DNA of 39,699 nt, taken from the IMG/VR virus record IMGVR_UViG_3300032360_000023, positions 1 to 39,699 of that record. One strand, given 5' to 3'. Below the pieces are notes generated by a model, which was not told the origin of the DNA, made no database searches, and saw only the letters and a list, made by a program, of their open reading frames with translations. The translations under genes were made by a program, and so were the position numbers. Source of the stretch: a virus. Shown here in pieces: positions 8,022-30,950 of the stretch; position 1 is the stretch's first letter, and each line of letters starts with the position of its first letter.

Positions 8022-9008
8022 ATGAAGAAATATATTATACCAGAGAACTGGATTCACGGCATGTCATTAGAAAGGAAAGGATTATTGAAGTCACAAATAA
8101 AGAGTAGTAAATCTTATTTGCCTAAGTGGTGGTCTATTGTAGTTTGGACAATTATAGCATTAGCTTTATCACATAGTTCAGTGTTGGGACAAACCTATAC
8201 AGTAGGAGATACTGTAGATAACTTTGGTTCAGAGATATGTGTAAACGGCGAAGATGATTGGAGCTATCACGTAAATGGCACAGGCAAAGTTGTATGGTTA
8301 AACCTATTTACATCTTGGTGACCATCCTGTCAAACGGAGGCTCCGATTTCAGAAAACATTTGGCAAGTATATCAAGAACTACCAGTAGTAGTAATAGCTG
8401 CAGGAAGTGATTGGTCAACGTACACATGTGAAGGATGGGCAGATGCATTTGGAATAACATACCCAATATTAGATGATGATAACAATACTATCTATCCTTT
8501 GTTTGGAACTGGATACATACCGCATAATATTATTATAAGCTCACAGGGAGTAGTCTTATACTCACAGTCTGGATTTAATCAAACTGCTATTATAGCAGTT
8601 ATTACTGAAGCACTAGAAACTGTAGATGAAGATAACGATGGGATCATTAACACTGAAGATAATTGTCCAGAAGACTATAATCCAGATCAAGAAGATGTAG
8701 ATGGTGATGGCATAGGTGATGCTTGCGATCTGTGTAATAATCTAGCATGGATTACAGGTGATCTAGACACTGATATGTCATTAGACATTGATGATGTTTT
8801 ACTTCTTGTAGATATTCTAATATTCGGTGATGGCCCCCAATGTCAGTTAGAAGCAGCAGATATGAATTTCGATAATCTAGTAAATGTATTAGATGTGATA
8901 GTAATAGTCCAGTACGTACTGTATGGCACAGAAGCAGAAGCGATACAGTGGTTGGAAGAGAATACGAAGTACCCTAATTATATTTCTATGAGGAGCATAG
9001 AACTGTGA
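8022..9008 (+). CDS. Secreted TlpA-like redoxin selenoprotein (UxxC) with TSP3 and dockerin-like repeats
   Basis: The frame is 329 codons, with one in-frame TGA at codon 100 (8319-8321) and no other stop before 9006. Around it the protein reads VVWLNLFTSW-U-PSC, matching TlpA/AhpC-TSA redoxins (W-C-x-x-C). U100 therefore replaces the attacking Cys, and C103 is the resolving one. Both sides of the TGA encode one continuous domain (60-200: VGDTVDNF, VVVIAAGSDW, FGITYPILDD, YIPHNIIIS). Residues 36-57 are a signal or anchor helix ending SVLGQ. Residues 202-238 are a calcium-binding thrombospondin type-3 repeat, and 246-302 are two dockerin-like helices (NVLDVIVIVQYVL). It would act outside the cytoplasm on disulfides or peroxides. 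It is coupled to the Fe-S carrier gene by a GTGA overlap. Confidence 0.85.
8319..8352 (+). promoter_or_regulatory. Bacterial SECIS-like element of the redoxin gene
   Basis: After the UGA (8319-8321) a hairpin forms: CTG, AAA and CGG (8327-8337) pair with CCG, TTT and CAG (8343-8352), with a UC bulge and one bulged A. The apical loop is AGGCU (8338-8342). The distance from UGA to the loop is 16 bases, and G is the second loop base. Both fit the published bacterial SECIS rules (loop 3-14 bases, G among the first two, 16-37 bases after UGA). Confidence 0.7.
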
Positions 9009-9325
9009 TAACAATAACAGAACAAGCAAGTAATCATTTGGCAAGTGTAGCAAAGGATATGTCTAACGTAGAGTTTTCAGTAGAAGGCGGTGGATGTAGT
9101 GGTATGAATTATGAGTTAAAGTTTACAGATAGAGAACCAAACGGAACAGATCAAGTAATATACTTTGCTAATGGTGCTATGAAGTTGATTGTGCCATTTT
9201 CTTCTTATGTATATTTAACAGGCACAGAGATAGATTTTTCTGAAGACTTACTTAATGGAGGATTTAAGTTTGGCAATCCACAGGCAAACAGAACGTGTGG
9301 TTGTGGAACTTCTTTTTCTGTGTGA
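9005..9325 (+). CDS. A-type Fe-S carrier (HesB/IscA/ErpA family)
   Basis: This 106-residue protein starts at a GTG that overlaps the redoxin stop. It has the three cysteines of the family: C31 in GGCSGMNYEL, and C98 and C100 in the CGCGTSF ending. Length and motif are those of a complete A-type carrier, which accepts a cluster from a scaffold and delivers it to apo-enzymes. Fe-S carriers of this type are known in marine phages. Its position directly after a selenium redoxin suggests a joint role in redox or metal-cofactor upkeep during infection. No scaffold or desulfurase gene is present. Confidence 0.88.
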   Translation: MITITEQASNHLASVAKDMSNVEFSVEGGGCSGMNYELKFTDREPNGTDQVIYFANGAMKLIVPFSSYVYLTGTEIDFSEDLLNGGFKFGNPQANRTCGCGTSFSV

Positions 9326-13437: not shown

Positions 13438-13920
13438 ATGAGCTTAGTAGTCAGAAAACAAGGTTTTCCAACAATATCAAGAGAAAACTTCTTAACCCCA
13501 TTCGATCACCTATTTGATAGGTTATTTGAAAACAACTTCCCAGATTTTATGAGCGAAGTTGGTGTAAAACCTTTTGAAGGTTCTGCATATCCGAAGGTCA
13601 ACGTATACGAACATGATGATGCAGTTGGTGTAGTTGCCGAAATTCCAGGCATTGCAAAGGAAGATCTTACAGTTGATGTAGAGGATGGTGTGTTAACAAT
13701 CAAGGGTACGAAACATGGTGCCATAGGAAGAGCTATGGAGGAAAATGCGATTGTAATTCGTAAGGAACTCAAGCATTCAGCTTTCGAACGCAGGTTTACA
13801 TTAGGTGAATCTTTAGATGGTGATAATATCAAAGCCAAGTTTAAGGATGGTATTTTGTCTATTGATATTCCAAAGATAGAACCTGAAAAACCAAAACGTA
13901 ACTTTGTGAAAATATCATAA
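13438..13920 (+). CDS. hsp20: Small heat-shock protein Hsp20
   Basis: This 160-residue protein has an alpha-crystallin domain at about 50-150: NVYEHDDAVGVVAEIPG, the segment EDLTVDVEDGVLTIKG, and the closing FKDGILSIDIPK with the conserved G-x-L. ATP-independent holdase chaperones of this kind are frequent in marine T4-like phages, where they may help fold virion proteins. AAAGGAG precedes the ATG. It stands alone with its own 140-base control region, unlike the packed genes around it. Confidence 0.92.
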   Translation: MSLVVRKQGFPTISRENFLTPFDHLFDRLFENNFPDFMSEVGVKPFEGSAYPKVNVYEHDDAVGVVAEIPGIAKEDLTVDVEDGVLTIKGTKHGAIGRAMEENAIVIRKELKHSAFERRFTLGESLDGDNIKAKFKDGILSIDIPKIEPEKPKRNFVKIS

Positions 13921-16486: not shown

Positions 16487-16646
16487 GACAAAAAAGAAAG
16501 TAGGTCAGTTTGATAACTACAAGAAATGGACAACCACTGAAGGATGCACCTTCATGGCTAAAGATAAAGAAGATGCAAAATTGTATCTTAAAAAGGCAGG
16601 AATCACGGATAGTTTTAAAGAAGTAGAGGTAAAAATACTTGACTAG
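16479..16646 (+). CDS. Small basic protein, TTG start
   Basis: AAGGAGG (16466-16472) stands six bases before TTG at 16479, which decides the start over an in-frame TTG at 16461. The 55-residue product is basic at the N-terminus, with a helix-strand end (DAKLYLKKAGITDSFKEVEV). No family recognised. Confidence 0.6.
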   Translation: MSKTKKKVGQFDNYKKWTTTEGCTFMAKDKEDAKLYLKKAGITDSFKEVEVKILD

Positions 16647-17310
16647 ATTTTCATATCATCAACACGACATAATAGATTGTCTTAAGAAGGACAATCCAGT
16701 TATAAATAAAAAACTAAGAAAGGTATCAGTAGATGAAGGACTTCATATCGCAAAAGATTTATTCAACATACTCGCAAAGAGGAAGGATGGCATTGGTCTT
16801 GCTGCTAATCAAGTTGGGATTGACGCCGCTGTTGCTGTGGTTAATGTTCGGGAGCCACTTATTTTAATCAACCCTGAAATTGAAGAACGATGGGATGAGA
16901 TAGATTATTATGAGGGCTGTTTATCATTTCCAAAAAAAGGTGTTCATACTAAACGATATAAAAATGTAATAATAAGAACTGAACAAGAAGAGAGTGGTTG
17001 GTACTTTAGTGGAGCAGGAAGTGGTGAAGAGGGCAAAGGATCATGGGAATCAGACGACAAGAGACAAGATCAAGAACAAAGAATATTAGAAGCAGTTTGC
17101 ATTCAACATGAGATTGATCACTTAAATGGTAAAACTATTATGGACAGAGAAAATAAACCAAAGCCAATAGTAAGTAAAAAGAAGTGGGGAAGAAATGAAA
17201 TCGTCGGAATCACAGATGGTAAGGATTATAAAGAAATTAAATATAAAAAAGCCAAACCACTTTTGGATAGTGGTGAATGGGTAGTATATGTAGGAGGCCC
17301 GATAACATAA
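16639..17310 (+). CDS. def: Peptide deformylase
   Basis: This 223-residue protein has all three metal-site motifs: GIGLAANQ (51-58), EGCLS (92-96) and HEIDH (157-161). It removes the formyl group from new proteins at the ribosome exit. Phage deformylases are known from marine myoviruses. This one is longer than usual: a charged Gly/Glu-rich insertion (about 116-146) sits between motifs II and III, and an extra C-terminal extension follows. The start is TTG, overlapping the previous gene by eight bases. Confidence 0.92.
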   Translation: MTRFSYHQHDIIDCLKKDNPVINKKLRKVSVDEGLHIAKDLFNILAKRKDGIGLAANQVGIDAAVAVVNVREPLILINPEIEERWDEIDYYEGCLSFPKKGVHTKRYKNVIIRTEQEESGWYFSGAGSGEEGKGSWESDDKRQDQEQRILEAVCIQHEIDHLNGKTIMDRENKPKPIVSKKKWGRNEIVGITDGKDYKEIKYKKAKPLLDSGEWVVYVGGPIT

Positions 17311-20570: not shown

Positions 20571-20983
20571 GGGCCCGTCACGGGTATCGACGGATGTATG
20601 TTAGCAATAGAGTGCAGCAGAGATTGAGCAGGTCTCGTATCAAAATGCTCGCAAAAACCAAAATGGCGAAGTATCGCTACAAGGGTTGGAAATCGATTGG
20701 CATTTGGCCGAGTATGATTTCCCGTCGACAGTACATGTCGCCGGCGTTTCGCAACCGACTTTCGCATACGCTTAGGTCCTTGGGTCGTTCAACACCCGAG
20801 CATAAAATAAGTTGGGCACCAAACTCAAATATGAGAGTATAAACTATATCAGTTAAGGAATATGTTCTGAGTAAAAGAAATTCACATGGTTGTTTGCTGG
20901 TTGCCACCAATGGAAACCAGCTAAGCTGTAACGACTCGTTGTTAATCACAGACCGGACGGGGGTTCGACTCCCCCCGGGTCCA
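20571..20983 (+). ncRNA. ssrA: tmRNA
   Basis: The ends form a tRNA-like acceptor: GGGCCCG (20571-20577) with CGGGTCC (20976-20982), 7 bp. The T arm is GGGGG-TTCGACT-CCCCC, and the 5' part has the diagnostic GGTATCGACGG. A pseudoknot PK1 forms from GAGA/TCTC and GAGCA/TGCTC. A-rich bases follow, as before the resume codon in other tmRNAs. Counting from E. coli, the resume codon should be near base 90-95. GGC at 20665 (base 95) opens a 36-codon frame, GEVSLQ to PTFAYA, ending TAG at 20773. A 13-codon frame (GCU 20676 to UGA 20715) is the alternative. With SmpB it rescues stalled ribosomes. CCA is not encoded. Confidence 0.88.
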
Positions 20984-21075
20984 CAATGAAATACAAAAGG
21001 TTTCACATGCAACAAGAACAGGTCAATGGGTTCTACCTATTAAAAATGAATCCAAAATTCAATAGGAGTGACGCG

Positions 21076-24655: not shown

Positions 24656-25894
24656 ATGTCAAACGGCGACTCCGGAGTTGTACAAGATAAGCTTAAATCA
24701 CATAGAAAAAAGCCGCTGCAACTTAGTAGAACTACAGCTGATGAGCATAGAATAAAAGATATTGCTCAATGGCTAATTGATGAGAATGAAACTGTAACAA
24801 TGCAAACAGTAGCAGCAACTGTTGAGCATGTAGTTTATAATGAAGATGACTTCACAGATAAAGAAGATGGCCCGGATATTGAGCATATTGGCTGTATTAA
24901 GGTTGCTACACCTGCTATTGATTTTCCAATATTACCAACGGCAGGTAGCTGGATTCATCCTTTAGACGCACAGGTTAGATCATATCCTATTGTTGGGGAG
25001 ATGGTAGGAATTGTTAATTATGGTGGACAAACATTTTATTTTCAACCATTAAATACACAAAATAAAGTCTCTCATAATATTATGTTGAATTTTAAAGGAG
25101 ACTCATCTGAAACAGGCAAGATAACAACTGATAATATTGATGATATTCTTAATCACTTCGCGTGGAATAAAAAGCCCAGACCTGTTAAACAATATCCAGG
25201 GGATTGGGCATTAAATGGAAGAAATGATCAATCAATAAGATTGGGAACTAATTTTAAAACAGTTGGCGATACTGAACTAAATCCTAATAATGCTGTAATT
25301 AAAATGAGAATTTCTCCTGAGACTACATCAACATCAATACCTGCTGGTACAACACGAATAGAAGATATTGATACTGATAAAGCATCATTTTATATGACAA
25401 GAGACGAAGAAATCAAGTATAAAGTTTCACCAAAGGTTGAGGGAACAACTGATGTACCAACAGCTGGAGCAGCCGCAATTATTCTTGATTCTGATAGATT
25501 AATATTTAATACTAAGGAAAGCTCTGAAACAGGACAAATAAATATATTTGCAGGTAACACAGTAAATATTGTTTCTAAAAATAATGCAAATATTATTGGC
25601 TCAGTGGTAAAGCTAGGTGATACTAATGATGATAATTTACAATCAGCAGTATTGGGAGAGGGCTTAGTAACCTTTCTTGCAGAATTGATTAAAACACTAG
25701 ATAGCTTTGCAGGAAGAATAGCAGGTCTTACTGGCATTGGTAATGTCGGTGGTGGAGTACCAATTCCAGAAGGAATGGCAGCTGGCAATGCATTAGGAGG
25801 ATGGACATCAGTATTGTCTAACGAACAATTTATAAAAACTAGAATATTGAGTAAGAATGTTAAAATATCAAAAATCGCCAAACCCGGATTATAA
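24656..25894 (+). CDS. Baseplate hub/spike-like protein (gp5-type OB fold)
   Basis: This 412-residue protein has an OB-like N-terminal part (IGCIKVATPAIDFPILPTAG then YPIVGEMVGIVNYGG), as in T4 gp5 and spike proteins. Later stretches carry beta-helix-like short strands (INIFAGNTVNIVSKNNANII). No lysozyme domain is present, unlike T4 gp5. It abuts the next gene by one base. Confidence 0.65.
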   Translation: MSNGDSGVVQDKLKSHRKKPLQLSRTTADEHRIKDIAQWLIDENETVTMQTVAATVEHVVYNEDDFTDKEDGPDIEHIGCIKVATPAIDFPILPTAGSWIHPLDAQVRSYPIVGEMVGIVNYGGQTFYFQPLNTQNKVSHNIMLNFKGDSSETGKITTDNIDDILNHFAWNKKPRPVKQYPGDWALNGRNDQSIRLGTNFKTVGDTELNPNNAVIKMRISPETTSTSIPAGTTRIEDIDTDKASFYMTRDEEIKYKVSPKVEGTTDVPTAGAAAIILDSDRLIFNTKESSETGQINIFAGNTVNIVSKNNANIIGSVVKLGDTNDDNLQSAVLGEGLVTFLAELIKTLDSFAGRIAGLTGIGNVGGGVPIPEGMAAGNALGGWTSVLSNEQFIKTRILSKNVKISKIAKPGL

Positions 25895-27354
25895 TGCCAT
25901 TAGACTGTAAAAATATTACAACAATTAAAAGACATCTTCAAGCAAACTCTAGTTTATTGATGGGTGATCAGATTATTGGCGGATCAGCAACTAAAACTGG
26001 TGGTGTAGGGTCTGATTCATCAGGTTTATCTGATGCTGAATTAGAAAAAAATCAGGCAGCAGCACAAGTATTTGGTATAAATTTGAGTATGGAACAAATG
26101 TTTCCTATGGGCTCGCAGTTAGGCGCCGGTGATTTTGTAACAGAAGACGGGTTTACAGCAGATGCTAATGGTGTTGATGTTGTTCATCAAGGTATGGGTG
26201 CTGAAGCAAGAGTATTTGCACCCGGCACCGAAGTAAAAGAAGGTGACCTCATTATAAATGGAAAAATTTTGGATGAAAATGGTAAAGAACATTCTGCACC
26301 CTATACAGTAAATGATTCAAATTCCTCTGTATCAAGTGCTGGTGCAGTTGTTTCTCCAGGAGGCGCAGATAGTGATGATGAGTATTGTAGTTTACAAGAA
26401 TTAGCTGGTACAACGCCAGAATCTCAATCTAGATTAGAAGACATGTTAGATGATTTAGATTTAGAATTAGACATTCCCGGGTTGGATATGACTTGGTGGG
26501 TAGAAATACAAAAAAAGATAAATGAGCTCATGCAACTCACAGGAAAGTTTATTGCAAAGACACAGAATCTAGTAGCATTAGTAGAACTTGATCCTGATAA
26601 GGCCTGTGAATTATTACCTGATGTTTCCAAACTGATAGAAATAATGCAAAAAGTTGTGGCAGCAATTAACAGAATTAATGCTATCATGGCTAAAATTTCT
26701 AAGATAATTAAAAAACTGAAGAAGGCACTAAAACTTTTAATGTGGTTATTTGCACCATTAAAAATGGTACAAACTTTGTTGTTAGCACTTCAAATGATAA
26801 TGGGTATTCCAACTTTAATTGAGATGGCTGTGAGGAGTATGATGGACGCGTCAAAAATATTACCACAATTAATTGCTTTATTGCAAAAAATTATTGCACA
26901 GTGCGCAATGAATCGAGGAGCTGCAGCCGGCTTAAGTCAAGAAGAATGTGAGGCATTGGGTGGTGTTTATGTAGATAGAAGTATTGGAGATTTAGGAGAC
27001 GCTAGCGGTGGCGGAGGTCAACCAAATTTAGACAGTAGCCTAGATTCTAATCTTGGATTTGATGATATGGGGAACGATTATTTTCCACCAGGTATGGATT
27101 TAAATGCTGGTGATGAACTTGGTAGTGGTCAAGCAATAGGTCCAGGAGGATCAGAATTGACAGCTCCTGCAACAATACCATACGATGCTAATGAAGGAGA
27201 TTGGTCTGTTGGAGGGGAAGGCGGTATGGGAACATCTGATAATGCAGATTTAAATGAAGATCAGATTGATGCAATGCTAGACTCACAAATTCTCGATTTA
27301 AGTGAATGTCTAACTGAGTTAGATGATTATACAAAAACAGCAAGCTTTAGTTAA
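25894..27354 (+). CDS. Baseplate-associated structural protein
   Basis: This 486-residue protein has Gly/Asp-rich ends and a central amphipathic or hydrophobic helical block (about 230-330: KLKKALKLLMWLFAPLKMVQ and so on) that could insert into a membrane or pack in a hub. CAMNRGAAAGLSQEECEALG is a Cys-containing motif seen in other marine phage tail proteins. Location suggests the central hub or tape-associated complex. No firm family. Confidence 0.55.
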   Translation: MPLDCKNITTIKRHLQANSSLLMGDQIIGGSATKTGGVGSDSSGLSDAELEKNQAAAQVFGINLSMEQMFPMGSQLGAGDFVTEDGFTADANGVDVVHQGMGAEARVFAPGTEVKEGDLIINGKILDENGKEHSAPYTVNDSNSSVSSAGAVVSPGGADSDDEYCSLQELAGTTPESQSRLEDMLDDLDLELDIPGLDMTWWVEIQKKINELMQLTGKFIAKTQNLVALVELDPDKACELLPDVSKLIEIMQKVVAAINRINAIMAKISKIIKKLKKALKLLMWLFAPLKMVQTLLLALQMIMGIPTLIEMAVRSMMDASKILPQLIALLQKIIAQCAMNRGAAAGLSQEECEALGGVYVDRSIGDLGDASGGGGQPNLDSSLDSNLGFDDMGNDYFPPGMDLNAGDELGSGQAIGPGGSELTAPATIPYDANEGDWSVGGEGGMGTSDNADLNEDQIDAMLDSQILDLSECLTELDDYTKTASFS

Positions 27355-27363
27355 TTATACATA

Positions 27364-27597
27364 ATGGATATATCTATTGAATATTGCATGCAATGAAATT
27401 ACGAACCAAGAGCCCTCAGTTTGAGAGATGAGTTAAGCAAAATGTTTGGAATCAATCCAGAATTAATAGAATCAGGTGGTGGAGTATTTGAGATTAAAGC
27501 AAACGGTCATTTGATTTTTAGTAAAAAACAATTAGGAAGGTTTCCGGAAGATAAGGAAATTTCAAACTTAATTAAAGGAATAGAAGAGGTCACATAA
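27364..27597 (+). CDS. SelW/Rdx-family selenoprotein (CxxU)
   Basis: The frame is 78 codons with one in-frame TGA at codon 11 (27394-27396), so standard gene calling would miss it. The start reads MDISIEYCMQ-U-NYEPRAL. The family consensus is IEYC-x2-C/U-Y-x2-RA-x2-L. The rest matches as well: GGGVFEIKANGHLIFSK and GRFPEDKEI are the hallmark strands of the SelW/SelT/Rdx fold. The length is right for the family. C8 and U11 form the redox pair, likely acting on thiols or glutathione-linked partners. It lies nine bases after a baseplate gene and two bases before another, so it is co-transcribed with tail genes. Confidence 0.9.
27394..27425 (+). promoter_or_regulatory. Bacterial SECIS-like element of the SelW-type gene
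   Basis: CTCA (27415-27418) pairs with TGAG (27422-27425) over the loop GUU (27419-27421), whose first base is G. The loop starts 22 bases after the UGA. This meets the bacterial SECIS rules. The stem is short (4 bp, extendable past one mismatch). Confidence 0.65.
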
Positions 27598-27598
27598 G

Positions 27599-28039
27599 AT
27601 GAAAGCAAACACAATAATGGCACTTAAAAAGGTGATGAAAGAAATGGTAGAAAAAGAAGTCGCCAAACAAATTAATATAGTTATTGATGAAATGAAAAAT
27701 CCAACAATAACAGAAGTTGATGCAGCTGATTATTATACTGGGCCTGAACCAGATAGTCAACAGCTTGCTAAGGATCCAATTTTAAATAAAATTTTAAATG
27801 AAACGAAAGGTGGAATATCTACAGGTGAAGAGTTTGAGGAATATCCTACTATGGGTGGTGGCGCAATTGATTCACCAGAGAAATTCTATGAACAACAAGC
27901 AGTATTAGAAACAGCTACTACCGGACAGCAACGAATAGAAATGGCTCCCAGCACACCAGAATTTTTAAAAAAAGCTTTTAGTGGTCATTCAGCAAAAGTA
28001 GTAAAAGCAATAGAGGATAAACATGGCACTAGAAGTTAA
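27599..28039 (+). CDS. Hypothetical tail-module protein
   Basis: This 146-residue protein starts right after the SelW-type gene. A helical N-terminus (MKEMVEKEVAKQINIVIDEM) is followed by a Gly/Pro-rich middle and a helical end (FLKKAFSGHSAKVVKAIEDK). Probably structural. It overlaps the next gene by 17 bases. Confidence 0.55.
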   Translation: MKANTIMALKKVMKEMVEKEVAKQINIVIDEMKNPTITEVDAADYYTGPEPDSQQLAKDPILNKILNETKGGISTGEEFEEYPTMGGGAIDSPEKFYEQQAVLETATTGQQRIEMAPSTPEFLKKAFSGHSAKVVKAIEDKHGTRS

Positions 28040-28514
28040 TAGACTAGCAAAAAATATATCTAATAGAAAGAACGAGCACACAGCTAAAAATAAATTTCTT
28101 AAGACAAAGCCAAAGATTCAAGAGATGAAACAGAATGTTGATCAGGCTCGGAGAGAAGCTAAAGATTTTCATGATTATGTATCGAGAGCTGAAGTTACTA
28201 TGGGCAGTGGAGGTGGTGGCGTATCTTCTGTTCCACTAATGGAACGAGATTCTTTTACACCACTAATTGAGGCTTTGCAATCTGTATTTAGTGTTGATGC
28301 GCTTGGTAATCCTAATTTGACGCCTATAGAAAGAAGTGTGTTAATAAATGATCTTGAAGACAGTTTAGAAATTGGAATCATAACTACAAATTCAGGACAA
28401 AGATATTTAACTACAAGGGCAAGAGCAAATCAGCTTGGTGGAGCATTTCAGCCAGTTACAAGTACAATGGCTTCACAATTAAGTAAAAACAGTGGTAAAG
28501 GTAAAATTATATAA
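28023..28514 (+). CDS. Hypothetical tail-module protein
   Basis: This 163-residue protein has a basic coiled N-terminal third, a Gly-rich hinge (SGGGGVSS) and a compact helical domain (LTPIERSVLINDLEDSLEIG). It abuts gp25 by one base. Likely a small baseplate component. Not recognised. Confidence 0.55.
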   Translation: MALEVNRLAKNISNRKNEHTAKNKFLKTKPKIQEMKQNVDQARREAKDFHDYVSRAEVTMGSGGGGVSSVPLMERDSFTPLIEALQSVFSVDALGNPNLTPIERSVLINDLEDSLEIGIITTNSGQRYLTTRARANQLGGAFQPVTSTMASQLSKNSGKGKII

Positions 28515-28951
28515 TGGCACTGGAAAATCCAAGAACTGCGTCAACTAGGGCGAGAGATAAGGATCCGGATTCTAAAATCGGAATTGTATTTCCGTTAAGG
28601 AATTCTCAGAACGGATTTTTTGCATCTTCATCAACTATACTTGAGCAAACAAAAACAAATTTAAAAAATTTACTCTTAACAGTCAAGGGTGAAAGATTAG
28701 GACAACCAGAATTTGGAAGTAATATTTTTAATTTATTATTTGAAAATTTTGATCCTGATTTAGAGAAAAAATTAGAAACTAGTATTAAAGATACTGTAGC
28801 AACATGGCTACCACATGTGCATATTATTAATTTAATTATTGATGCACAAGAAGACGAAAATTATCTTAACATATCGATGGGATATGAAATTGAGAATAGT
28901 CATAATGCAACAGATTCAATTTCTCTACGATTAGCAAGGAATATAGTATAA
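28514..28951 (+). CDS. Baseplate wedge protein gp25-like
   Basis: This 145-residue protein has the gp25/GPW fold: TILEQTKTNLKNLLLTVKGE, RLGQPEFGSNIFNLLFENF and a closing strand pair (LNISMGYEIEN). The family joins the baseplate wedge and sheath start in T4 and P2. It is immediately followed by the gp6-like gene, the standard order. Confidence 0.9.
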   Translation: MALENPRTASTRARDKDPDSKIGIVFPLRNSQNGFFASSSTILEQTKTNLKNLLLTVKGERLGQPEFGSNIFNLLFENFDPDLEKKLETSIKDTVATWLPHVHIINLIIDAQEDENYLNISMGYEIENSHNATDSISLRLARNIV

Positions 28952-28952
28952 T

Positions 28953-30950
28953 ATGGCAAGCACAAAATTAAAGCCAAAACAAGTTAACTACTTAAATAAA
29001 AATTTTAATAATTTTAAATCAGACTTAGTGGAGTATGCTAAAACATATTTTCCTAATTCATATGCTGATTTTAATGAAGCATCTCCTGGAATGATGTTTA
29101 TAGAAATGTCGTCTTATATAGGAGATGTATTATCATTTTATGTTGATGAACAATTTAGAGAATCACTTCTTGCTTATGCAGAAGAGAAGAAAACAATATT
29201 TGATATTGCACAATCATATGGGTATAAGCCAACAATTGCCACGCCATCAACTGCAAAATTAGATTTTTACCAAACAGTACCAGCTATCGGTACAGGTGAT
29301 GGCGCAAAACCAAATTATGATTATTCCTATACAATTGATGCGGGAAGCCTTGTAGAATCTAGCCAATATGGTAAGACTTTTAGAACTTTAGATCAAATTA
29401 ATTTTGCATTTTCTAGTTCAATGGATCCCACGACTGTTGAGATATACGATGTAAATGATAGCTCACCTACAAAATTTCTTTTGAAAAAATCAGTAAGGGC
29501 TGTTAGCGGTACAATTGTGACAGAAACATTCTCATTTGGTGATGCAAAAGCATATGATAGAATTTCTTTATCCAATCCTGGTGTATTAGAAGTTATTTCT
29601 GTAACTGACGCAGACGGCAATAAGTGGCATGAAGTTGAGTCATTAGCACAAGATTTAGTATTTGATAATGTAGCAAATACTGCTGAAAATGATCCTAATT
29701 TAGGAGGCTATAATGACACCACACCGTATTTACTTAAGATGACAAGAACAAATAATAGATTTAAAATAAGAATTACAATAGAGGGAAAATCACAATTACA
29801 GTTTGGATCTGGAACATCCACTTCTGCAGATGAAGAAATAATTCCAAACCCGTCAATGATTGGAAATAGTTTTACAAATACAAATTATTTAAATAATGCA
29901 GCAGCATTAGACCCATCAAATTTTTTGAATACCGCTGTTTATGGAGCTGCCCCTGCTAACACGATACTAACTGTACAATATTCTTATGGCGGAGGAGTAT
30001 CTGCAAATGTACCTGCTGGCTCAGTAACATCACTGAGAGGTTTAAATAAATCAATAGCTGTATCAGGTTTAGATAATGCATTAGTAGGAGAAACAGAAGC
30101 TTCACTTGCTGTGACAAACCCAATTCCTGCTACAGGTGGAAGAGGTGAAGAGACGTTAACAGAAATAAAAGAAAATACAAAAGCATATTTTCAAGCACAA
30201 AATAGAGCAGTTTCAAAAGAAGATTATATTACTAGAGTTTATAATCTACCTGCAAAATATGGTAATGTTCAGAAGATTTATATCACTCAAGATGATCAGT
30301 TAGAAACTGGTGCGGGTATTATTCAGGATGGCATAATTGATATGCCAACATTAGAAAAGTTGGGGGGACAAGTTTCTATAGCAGAGCTTATGGGCGAAGG
30401 TGGTCGTGTCACAAATCCGATGGCACTTAATTTTTACGTTTTAGGATACAATCATAATAAAAAACTGACAGCTGTAAATGAAGCAACAAAGAGAAATATA
30501 AAAACTTATCTTGGGCCATATAGAGTTTTAACAGATGCTATCAATATTAAGGATGCGTATGTTATCAATATAGGAATTAGATTTGCGCTATATGTGAAAA
30601 AAGGATACAATAAGAATGAAATATTATTGAAGTGTATACAAAAAGTTAAAGATTATTTTGACATAGATAAGTGGCAAGTGAATCAACCAATTATTTTGCA
30701 AGATGTTTCTTATGAAATGTCGTTAGTTGAGGGTGTTAATAATATTGTTCCGCCACCTGATGAAAATCCTGATAAGGATACTATTGTTGTAACAAATAAA
30801 TTTAAAGAAGAGAACGGATATTCGGGAAATATATATAATATTAAAGATGCAACTTCTAAAGATATTCTTTATCCGTCTCTTGATCCTTCAATATTTGAAG
30901 TTAGGTACCCAAATATAGATATTGTTGGTAAAGTTTTGGGAGATTATTAA
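28953..30950 (+). CDS. Baseplate wedge protein gp6-like
   Basis: This 665-residue protein opens with a gp6/J-type domain: FPNSYADFNEASPGMMFIEM, SYIGDVLSFYVDEQFRESLL and IFDIAQSYGYKP. The late part (AVSKEDYITRVYNLPAKYGN) is the conserved region of marine T4-like gp6. It forms the inner ring of the baseplate. It overlaps the next gene by one base. Confidence 0.9.
   Translation: MASTKLKPKQVNYLNKNFNNFKSDLVEYAKTYFPNSYADFNEASPGMMFIEMSSYIGDVLSFYVDEQFRESLLAYAEEKKTIFDIAQSYGYKPTIATPSTAKLDFYQTVPAIGTGDGAKPNYDYSYTIDAGSLVESSQYGKTFRTLDQINFAFSSSMDPTTVEIYDVNDSSPTKFLLKKSVRAVSGTIVTETFSFGDAKAYDRISLSNPGVLEVISVTDADGNKWHEVESLAQDLVFDNVANTAENDPNLGGYNDTTPYLLKMTRTNNRFKIRITIEGKSQLQFGSGTSTSADEEIIPNPSMIGNSFTNTNYLNNAAALDPSNFLNTAVYGAAPANTILTVQYSYGGGVSANVPAGSVTSLRGLNKSIAVSGLDNALVGETEASLAVTNPIPATGGRGEETLTEIKENTKAYFQAQNRAVSKEDYITRVYNLPAKYGNVQKIYITQDDQLETGAGIIQDGIIDMPTLEKLGGQVSIAELMGEGGRVTNPMALNFYVLGYNHNKKLTAVNEATKRNIKTYLGPYRVLTDAINIKDAYVINIGIRFALYVKKGYNKNEILLKCIQKVKDYFDIDKWQVNQPIILQDVSYEMSLVEGVNNIVPPPDENPDKDTIVVTNKFKEENGYSGNIYNIKDATSKDILYPSLDPSIFEVRYPNIDIVGKVLGDY

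Follow-up and report, generated by a model that had tools for sequence, protein, structure and literature searches.

By 2019 the only proven viral selenoproteins were the glutathione peroxidases of poxviruses, GPX1 of molluscum contagiosum and GPX4 of fowlpox (PMC6769590), and protein families beyond a few metalloproteins have few or no viral sequences (PMC9402790). For bacteriophages, genes for selenocysteine (Sec) tRNA have been reported in huge phages (PMC10747093), which suggests that phages use Sec, although these are tRNA predictions only and the word selenoprotein is absent from that report; the word phage is likewise absent from a review of the selenoproteome of prokaryotes published in 2026 (PMC13188914). 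SelW-like selenoproteins are the commonest kind in ocean surveys (PMC1088965, PMC2398784), and the kind of protein is therefore already known.

Here we analyse the virus record IMGVR_UViG_3300032360_000023, positions 1-39,699 (the whole stretch, referred to as the window), in which an initial annotation had proposed a SelW-type selenoprotein gene within a baseplate operon. The gene resembles those of the bacterial SelW-like selenoproteins (Rdx, PF10262) in product length, fold, CxxU motif, UGA and a bSECIS element just past the UGA, but differs from them in that the phage copies form a supported separate clade, lie in phage operons and have no Sec machinery that we could find alongside. With the poxvirus peroxidases it would share the general arrangement in which a virus carries an antioxidant selenoprotein taken from its host and relies on host machinery to decode it, while the poxvirus proteins have another fold, a eukaryotic SECIS, animal viruses as their carriers and no homology to SelW. 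In the open-licence literature we found no earlier phage selenoprotein; subscription papers and preprints lie mostly outside that body of work, and priority is thus not proven. Within it, the view that the gene was undescribed holds.

The selW frame and its in-frame UGA

The gene and its UGA are placed as follows.

27364..27597, + strand: selW-like selenoprotein gene, 77 aa, Sec at residue 11, CxxU motif
27394..27396, + strand: in-frame UGA, Sec codon 11; TGA in 13 of 13 distinct phage homologues

Read with TGA as Sec, the frame (78 codons counting the TAA stop) encodes 77 aa, with C-M-Q-U occupying residues 8-11. The coordinates, codon count, position of the TGA, redox motif and a GUU loop 22 nt past the UGA were all as first annotated, and the claimed end-to-end match to SelW/Rdx was borne out by a profile search of the read-through translation: the alignment to Pfam Rdx PF10262 (E=9.4e-20, 71 bits against a cut-off of 22.6) spans residues 3-71, corresponding to positions 2-73 of the 74 in the profile. 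NCBIfam NF041051 (SelT/SelW/SelH; 99 bits, cut-off 88) and TIGR02174 (60.3 bits, cut-off 34.2) also match. The AlphaFold2 model is thioredoxin-like (pLDDT 91.9), with a strand at 3-8, a helix at 14-28 and C8-M-Q-U11 in the first strand-helix loop; its top PDB matches by Foldseek are bacterial SelW-related proteins (TM 0.87 for 2fa8), and mouse SelW is also among the matches. The expectation that gene finders would skip the gene needs softening, since a 58-codon plain ORF begins 3' of the UGA (TTG at 27421), from which a gene finder might call a truncated product instead.

The phage homologues comprise 17 virus records (window included) and the phage-like contig L014, together 13 distinct sequences. 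TGA occupies codon 11 in all nine related loci from IMG/VR, in each of six further copies recovered by a DNA-pattern scan that permitted any TGN at this codon, and in one more copy in the 131-kb record G313. The TGC, TGT and TGG matches of this tolerant scan were all unrelated sequences, and it returned no Cys, Trp or other selW variant; a sense codon unrelated to Cys or Sec, which had been named as the observation that would speak against the gene, thus occurs in none of the 13 phage sequences. The G313 copy (L150, G313:46146-46373) has NYKP for NYEP. Because it escaped the DNA-pattern scan, phage selW genes are probably more numerous than counted here. A tblastn search with the SelW protein gave no match in the 50,697 phage records of INPHARED, and there is therefore no close SelW relative among those sequenced phages. 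In the Calditrichota/KSB1 phylum, by comparison, 43 of 82 genomes have selW, with the in-frame TGA in 42 of these 43, and most matches in 290 wider relatives likewise have it.

The codons past the UGA are under purifying selection, with dN/dS values of 0.42, 0.16 and 0.08 in three pairwise comparisons (synonymous sites were saturated in two further pairs). These values, all below 0.5, argue against a UGA that is a true stop, left by gene decay or by a sequencing or assembly error. A mismatch in the window's hairpin (see below) would fit decay, but the exact TGA is kept in many independent assemblies and in about 40 bacterial genomes, and we give this explanation practically no credence. Genetic-code changes do exist in some phages, and one could imagine TGA being reassigned genome-wide, for instance to Trp; yet 11 of the window's 47 main ORFs end at TGA as an ordinary stop, so that a reassigned code is excluded, and the UGA aligns with Cys or Sec of homologues, the Cys-type ones having Cys at this position. 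Reassignment is accordingly extremely improbable. We are highly confident that uncultured, apparently marine tailed phages carry a phage selenoprotein gene of the SelW (Rdx) family.

A covarying hairpin past the UGA

Just past the UGA lies a hairpin of the bSECIS type.

27413..27427, + strand: bSECIS apical hairpin CCCUCA-GUU-UGAGAG, loop 27419-27421, C-A mismatch at pair 27414/27426

In the window, the loop GUU begins 22 nt past the UGA and the stem has 4 bp plus the mismatch, while most other phage copies have 6 bp. Taken singly, the window's copy is weak: folding 66 nt did not pick the hairpin and was not significant (z=+1.28), the hairpin alone amounts to -2.2 kcal/mol and the 36 nt past the UGA to -3.4 kcal/mol, less stable than any other phage copy folded (these range from -5.8 to -7.2 kcal/mol), and at the Rfam gathering threshold the window has no match to a SECIS family, only a tRNA and a tmRNA. 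That tmRNA match (20571-20986, 75 bits, full length) was not called by ARAGORN.

Since the single-sequence fold was not significant, we turned to covariation. The hairpin can form in all phage homologues and in nearly all aligned bacterial ones, always with a 3-nt loop (GUU, GGU or similar) at 22 nt. Across 11 phages, 98.5% of the cells pair and three of the six pairs have changes on both sides; the covariation score is 0.388 against 0.223 for shuffled alignments, with none of 500 shuffles reaching the observed value, and sliding the partner strand by 1-3 columns lowers pairing to 20-59%. When 19 bacterial sequences are added to the 11 phages, 41 both-side changes are seen against 13.4 after shuffling (0/500). 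Compensated stems include CUCUCA/UGAGAG, CUCUUA/UAAGAG and CUCGUA/UACGAG, with CGGCCA/UGGCCG in bacteria, and G313, found after this test, adds CCCUUA/UAAGGG. The loop G[G/U] and the spacing agree with the published bSECIS model, whose energy criterion of -7.5 kcal/mol or below is failed by the window and the other AT-rich phage stems folded (PMC13188914); we give more weight to the covariation. The SECIS-like hairpin of the initial annotation is thus upheld in its geometry and by covariation, while its copy in the window, with weak folding and a C-A mismatch, would not have convinced by itself.

Probable bacterial origin, decoding and a second candidate selenoprotein

In a tree, the 12 phage SelW rows cluster as a single clade (support 100/98), nested in the group to which the Sec-containing SelW proteins of Calditrichota/KSB1 belong; the latter are the nearest non-phage relatives found (56% identity, with NYEPRALSL common to both). 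The simplest reading would be a single acquisition of selW from a bacterium in or near this group; we are unsure of the exact donor because the alignment has few columns. That the nearest non-phage relatives are bacterial, and that the IMG/VR records are computed, might raise the suspicion of misassembled bacterial DNA. This is hardly conceivable, however, given the separate phage clade, and the flanking of selW by phage genes (gp25, gp6, ssDNA-binding and recombinase-like) in several different gene settings, on records as long as 59-132 kb. A further observation concerns contig L014 (LUQU01000041.1), binned with a SAR86 MAG, which carries a MoxR-like ATPase, a thermonuclease and selW and resembles this phage group; the SAR86 bin holding it is probably contaminated by phage DNA.

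Scans of the phage records, several of which are fragments, revealed neither SelB nor any tRNA-Sec above the Rfam threshold, so that host factors would have to decode the UGA. Two sub-threshold tRNA-Sec-like matches (L073, L074) lie in the 216,422-bp phage record G012 (behind L042), which itself matched only an N-terminal stretch of the redoxin query described below. In the Calditrichota/KSB1 phylum, to which the nearest non-phage relatives found belong, SelB is above cut-off in 57 of the 82 genomes; it passes in 32 of 42 MAGs with SelW-TGA as against 25 of 40 others, a loose tracking.

The initial annotation's single selenoprotein proved incomplete, as it had overlooked a second, likely Sec gene in the window.

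8022..9008, + strand: redoxin/TlpA-like gene with SWUPSC and a TSP3/dockerin-like C-terminal part, second likely selenoprotein gene
8319..8321, + strand: in-frame UGA, Sec codon 100 of the redoxin gene; TGA in 7 of 7 phage records
8335..8345, + strand: redoxin hairpin CGGA-GGC-UCCG, loop 17 nt past the UGA

Read through its TGA, this gene matches Pfam Redoxin (4.6e-10); its scores fall below the cut-offs of NF041054 and NF045500, the latter being matched by the C-terminal part. The hairpin is identical in all seven phage records (local fold -3.3 kcal/mol) and thus offers no variation on which a covariation test could draw. Among bacteria, five relatives of the redoxin domain likewise contain one TGA. 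A single-sequence redoxin search had returned N-terminal matches of 25-47 aa only, which are not redoxins and were discarded; a two-sequence profile found six real redoxins. The gene likely encodes a selenoprotein. Its product would share the Trx fold, UxxC and TSP3/dockerin-like tail of ResA/TlpA-like redoxins and marine UxxC selenoproteins, from which it differs in being phage-borne and in the T9SS sorting tail of some phage copies (one above the model cut-off). This tail suggests an FCB-group host, and phages may export a redox protein via the host secretion system. These phages probably infect a selenocysteine-using bacterium of the FCB group; naming Marinimicrobia, from the T9SS/dockerin style, would be a guess. 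Both selW and the redoxin gene are present in the window, G003 and G313, and in a scan of the phage records for more Sec genes with redox motifs only these two were convincing by eye.

Genomic neighbourhood and possible function

In the window, selW is tightly packed among tail genes.

25894..27354, + strand: upstream gene, 486 aa, weak tail-protein similarity; stop 9 nt before selW
27599..28039, + strand: p146, downstream gene, starts 1 nt past the selW stop; homologues precede gp25 in related phages
28514..28951, + strand: baseplate wedge gp25-like (PF04965 5.2e-11; phrog_261 7e-26)
28953..30950, + strand: baseplate wedge gp6-like (phrog_6 1.1e-18)

This arrangement, found only in the window and the near-identical G001, would probably entail late co-transcription with the tail genes, and it is what favours a virion or baseplate-assembly redox protein, the role of thiol guard or assembly factor that had initially been suggested. 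A conserved position of selW in the baseplate operon is, however, not seen across the related phages. The p146-gp25-gp6 block of G096, G009 and G095 is without selW, as is gp25-gp6 of G313, and in these four records selW lies kilobases away, in unrelated neighbourhoods. Elsewhere (neighbour names beyond tool matches are our own reading of the sequences) it follows a thermonuclease-like gene (G003, G004, L002, L014, G095), with a thyX-like gene adjoining in G003/G004, precedes ssDNA-binding, RecA-like and 5'-nuclease-like genes (G006, G097/G098, G100, L092), or sits among small genes near IscA-like and other host-like genes (G007-G009, G096); chaperone genes are also among its neighbours in related phages. 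A virion role is therefore very unlikely, and the link to the baseplate is not sustained. Retention of a gene in shifting surroundings would be typical of an auxiliary gene acting alone, and selW is best read as a mobile auxiliary gene for thiol redox that derives from a host and depends on selenium. The window also encodes an IscA-like Fe-S protein (9005-9325), HSP20 (13438-13920) and peptide deformylase (16639-17310), each common to several of these phages, a host-like protein-care set.

With regard to mechanism, we infer that Sec is inserted at UGA-11: during infection, host SelB and Sec-tRNA would bind the hairpin just past this codon, yielding a 77-aa CxxU thiol-selenol oxidoreductase. 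An early UGA, followed in the window by a next gene only 1 nt past the selW stop so that translational coupling is possible, might alternatively act as a selenium-sensing switch, giving an inert 10-aa peptide at low selenium while read-through alters downstream translation. Such a switch deserves little credence, as the entire Rdx domain past the UGA is conserved and under purifying selection, and the downstream genes vary among phages.

As a whole, a host-decoded phage SelW selenoprotein acting as a thiol-redox helper is the best explanation, and one we hold with good confidence. That the protein is a soluble general redox helper and no part of the virion is a tentative proposal, to which we would give a little less than an even chance, and any one particular substrate is less probable again. 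It may reduce or deglutathionylate infection-stressed proteins, or may feed electrons to nucleotide-making enzymes. As SelW has been reported to interact with glutathione (PMC1088965), thiol repair or glutathione-dependent reduction would be the most likely chemistry. Support of nucleotide synthesis is attractive but unproven; the idea derives from thyX near selW in two phages and a class II RNR-like gene in others (G097, G098, G313, G006, G309), no such RNR-like gene being found in the remaining phage records, which are mostly fragments. A motif search of the phage records, a weak test, revealed no clear thioredoxin or glutaredoxin gene.

On balance, we lean towards a T4-like marine phage clade with a mobile selenium-redox set, consisting of a cytosolic SelW with or without a secreted Sec-redoxin, which would be a first for bacteriophages. 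If this is true, such phages depend on the selenocysteine machinery and the selenium supply of their hosts, and the host range of a phage can be bound, through one of its genes, to bacteria that decode Sec. Standard gene calling would truncate or miss such genes, and part of the abundant SelW reads of ocean surveys could be viral. Phages would then exploit the 21st amino acid, in a clade with at least one, and sometimes two, Sec genes.
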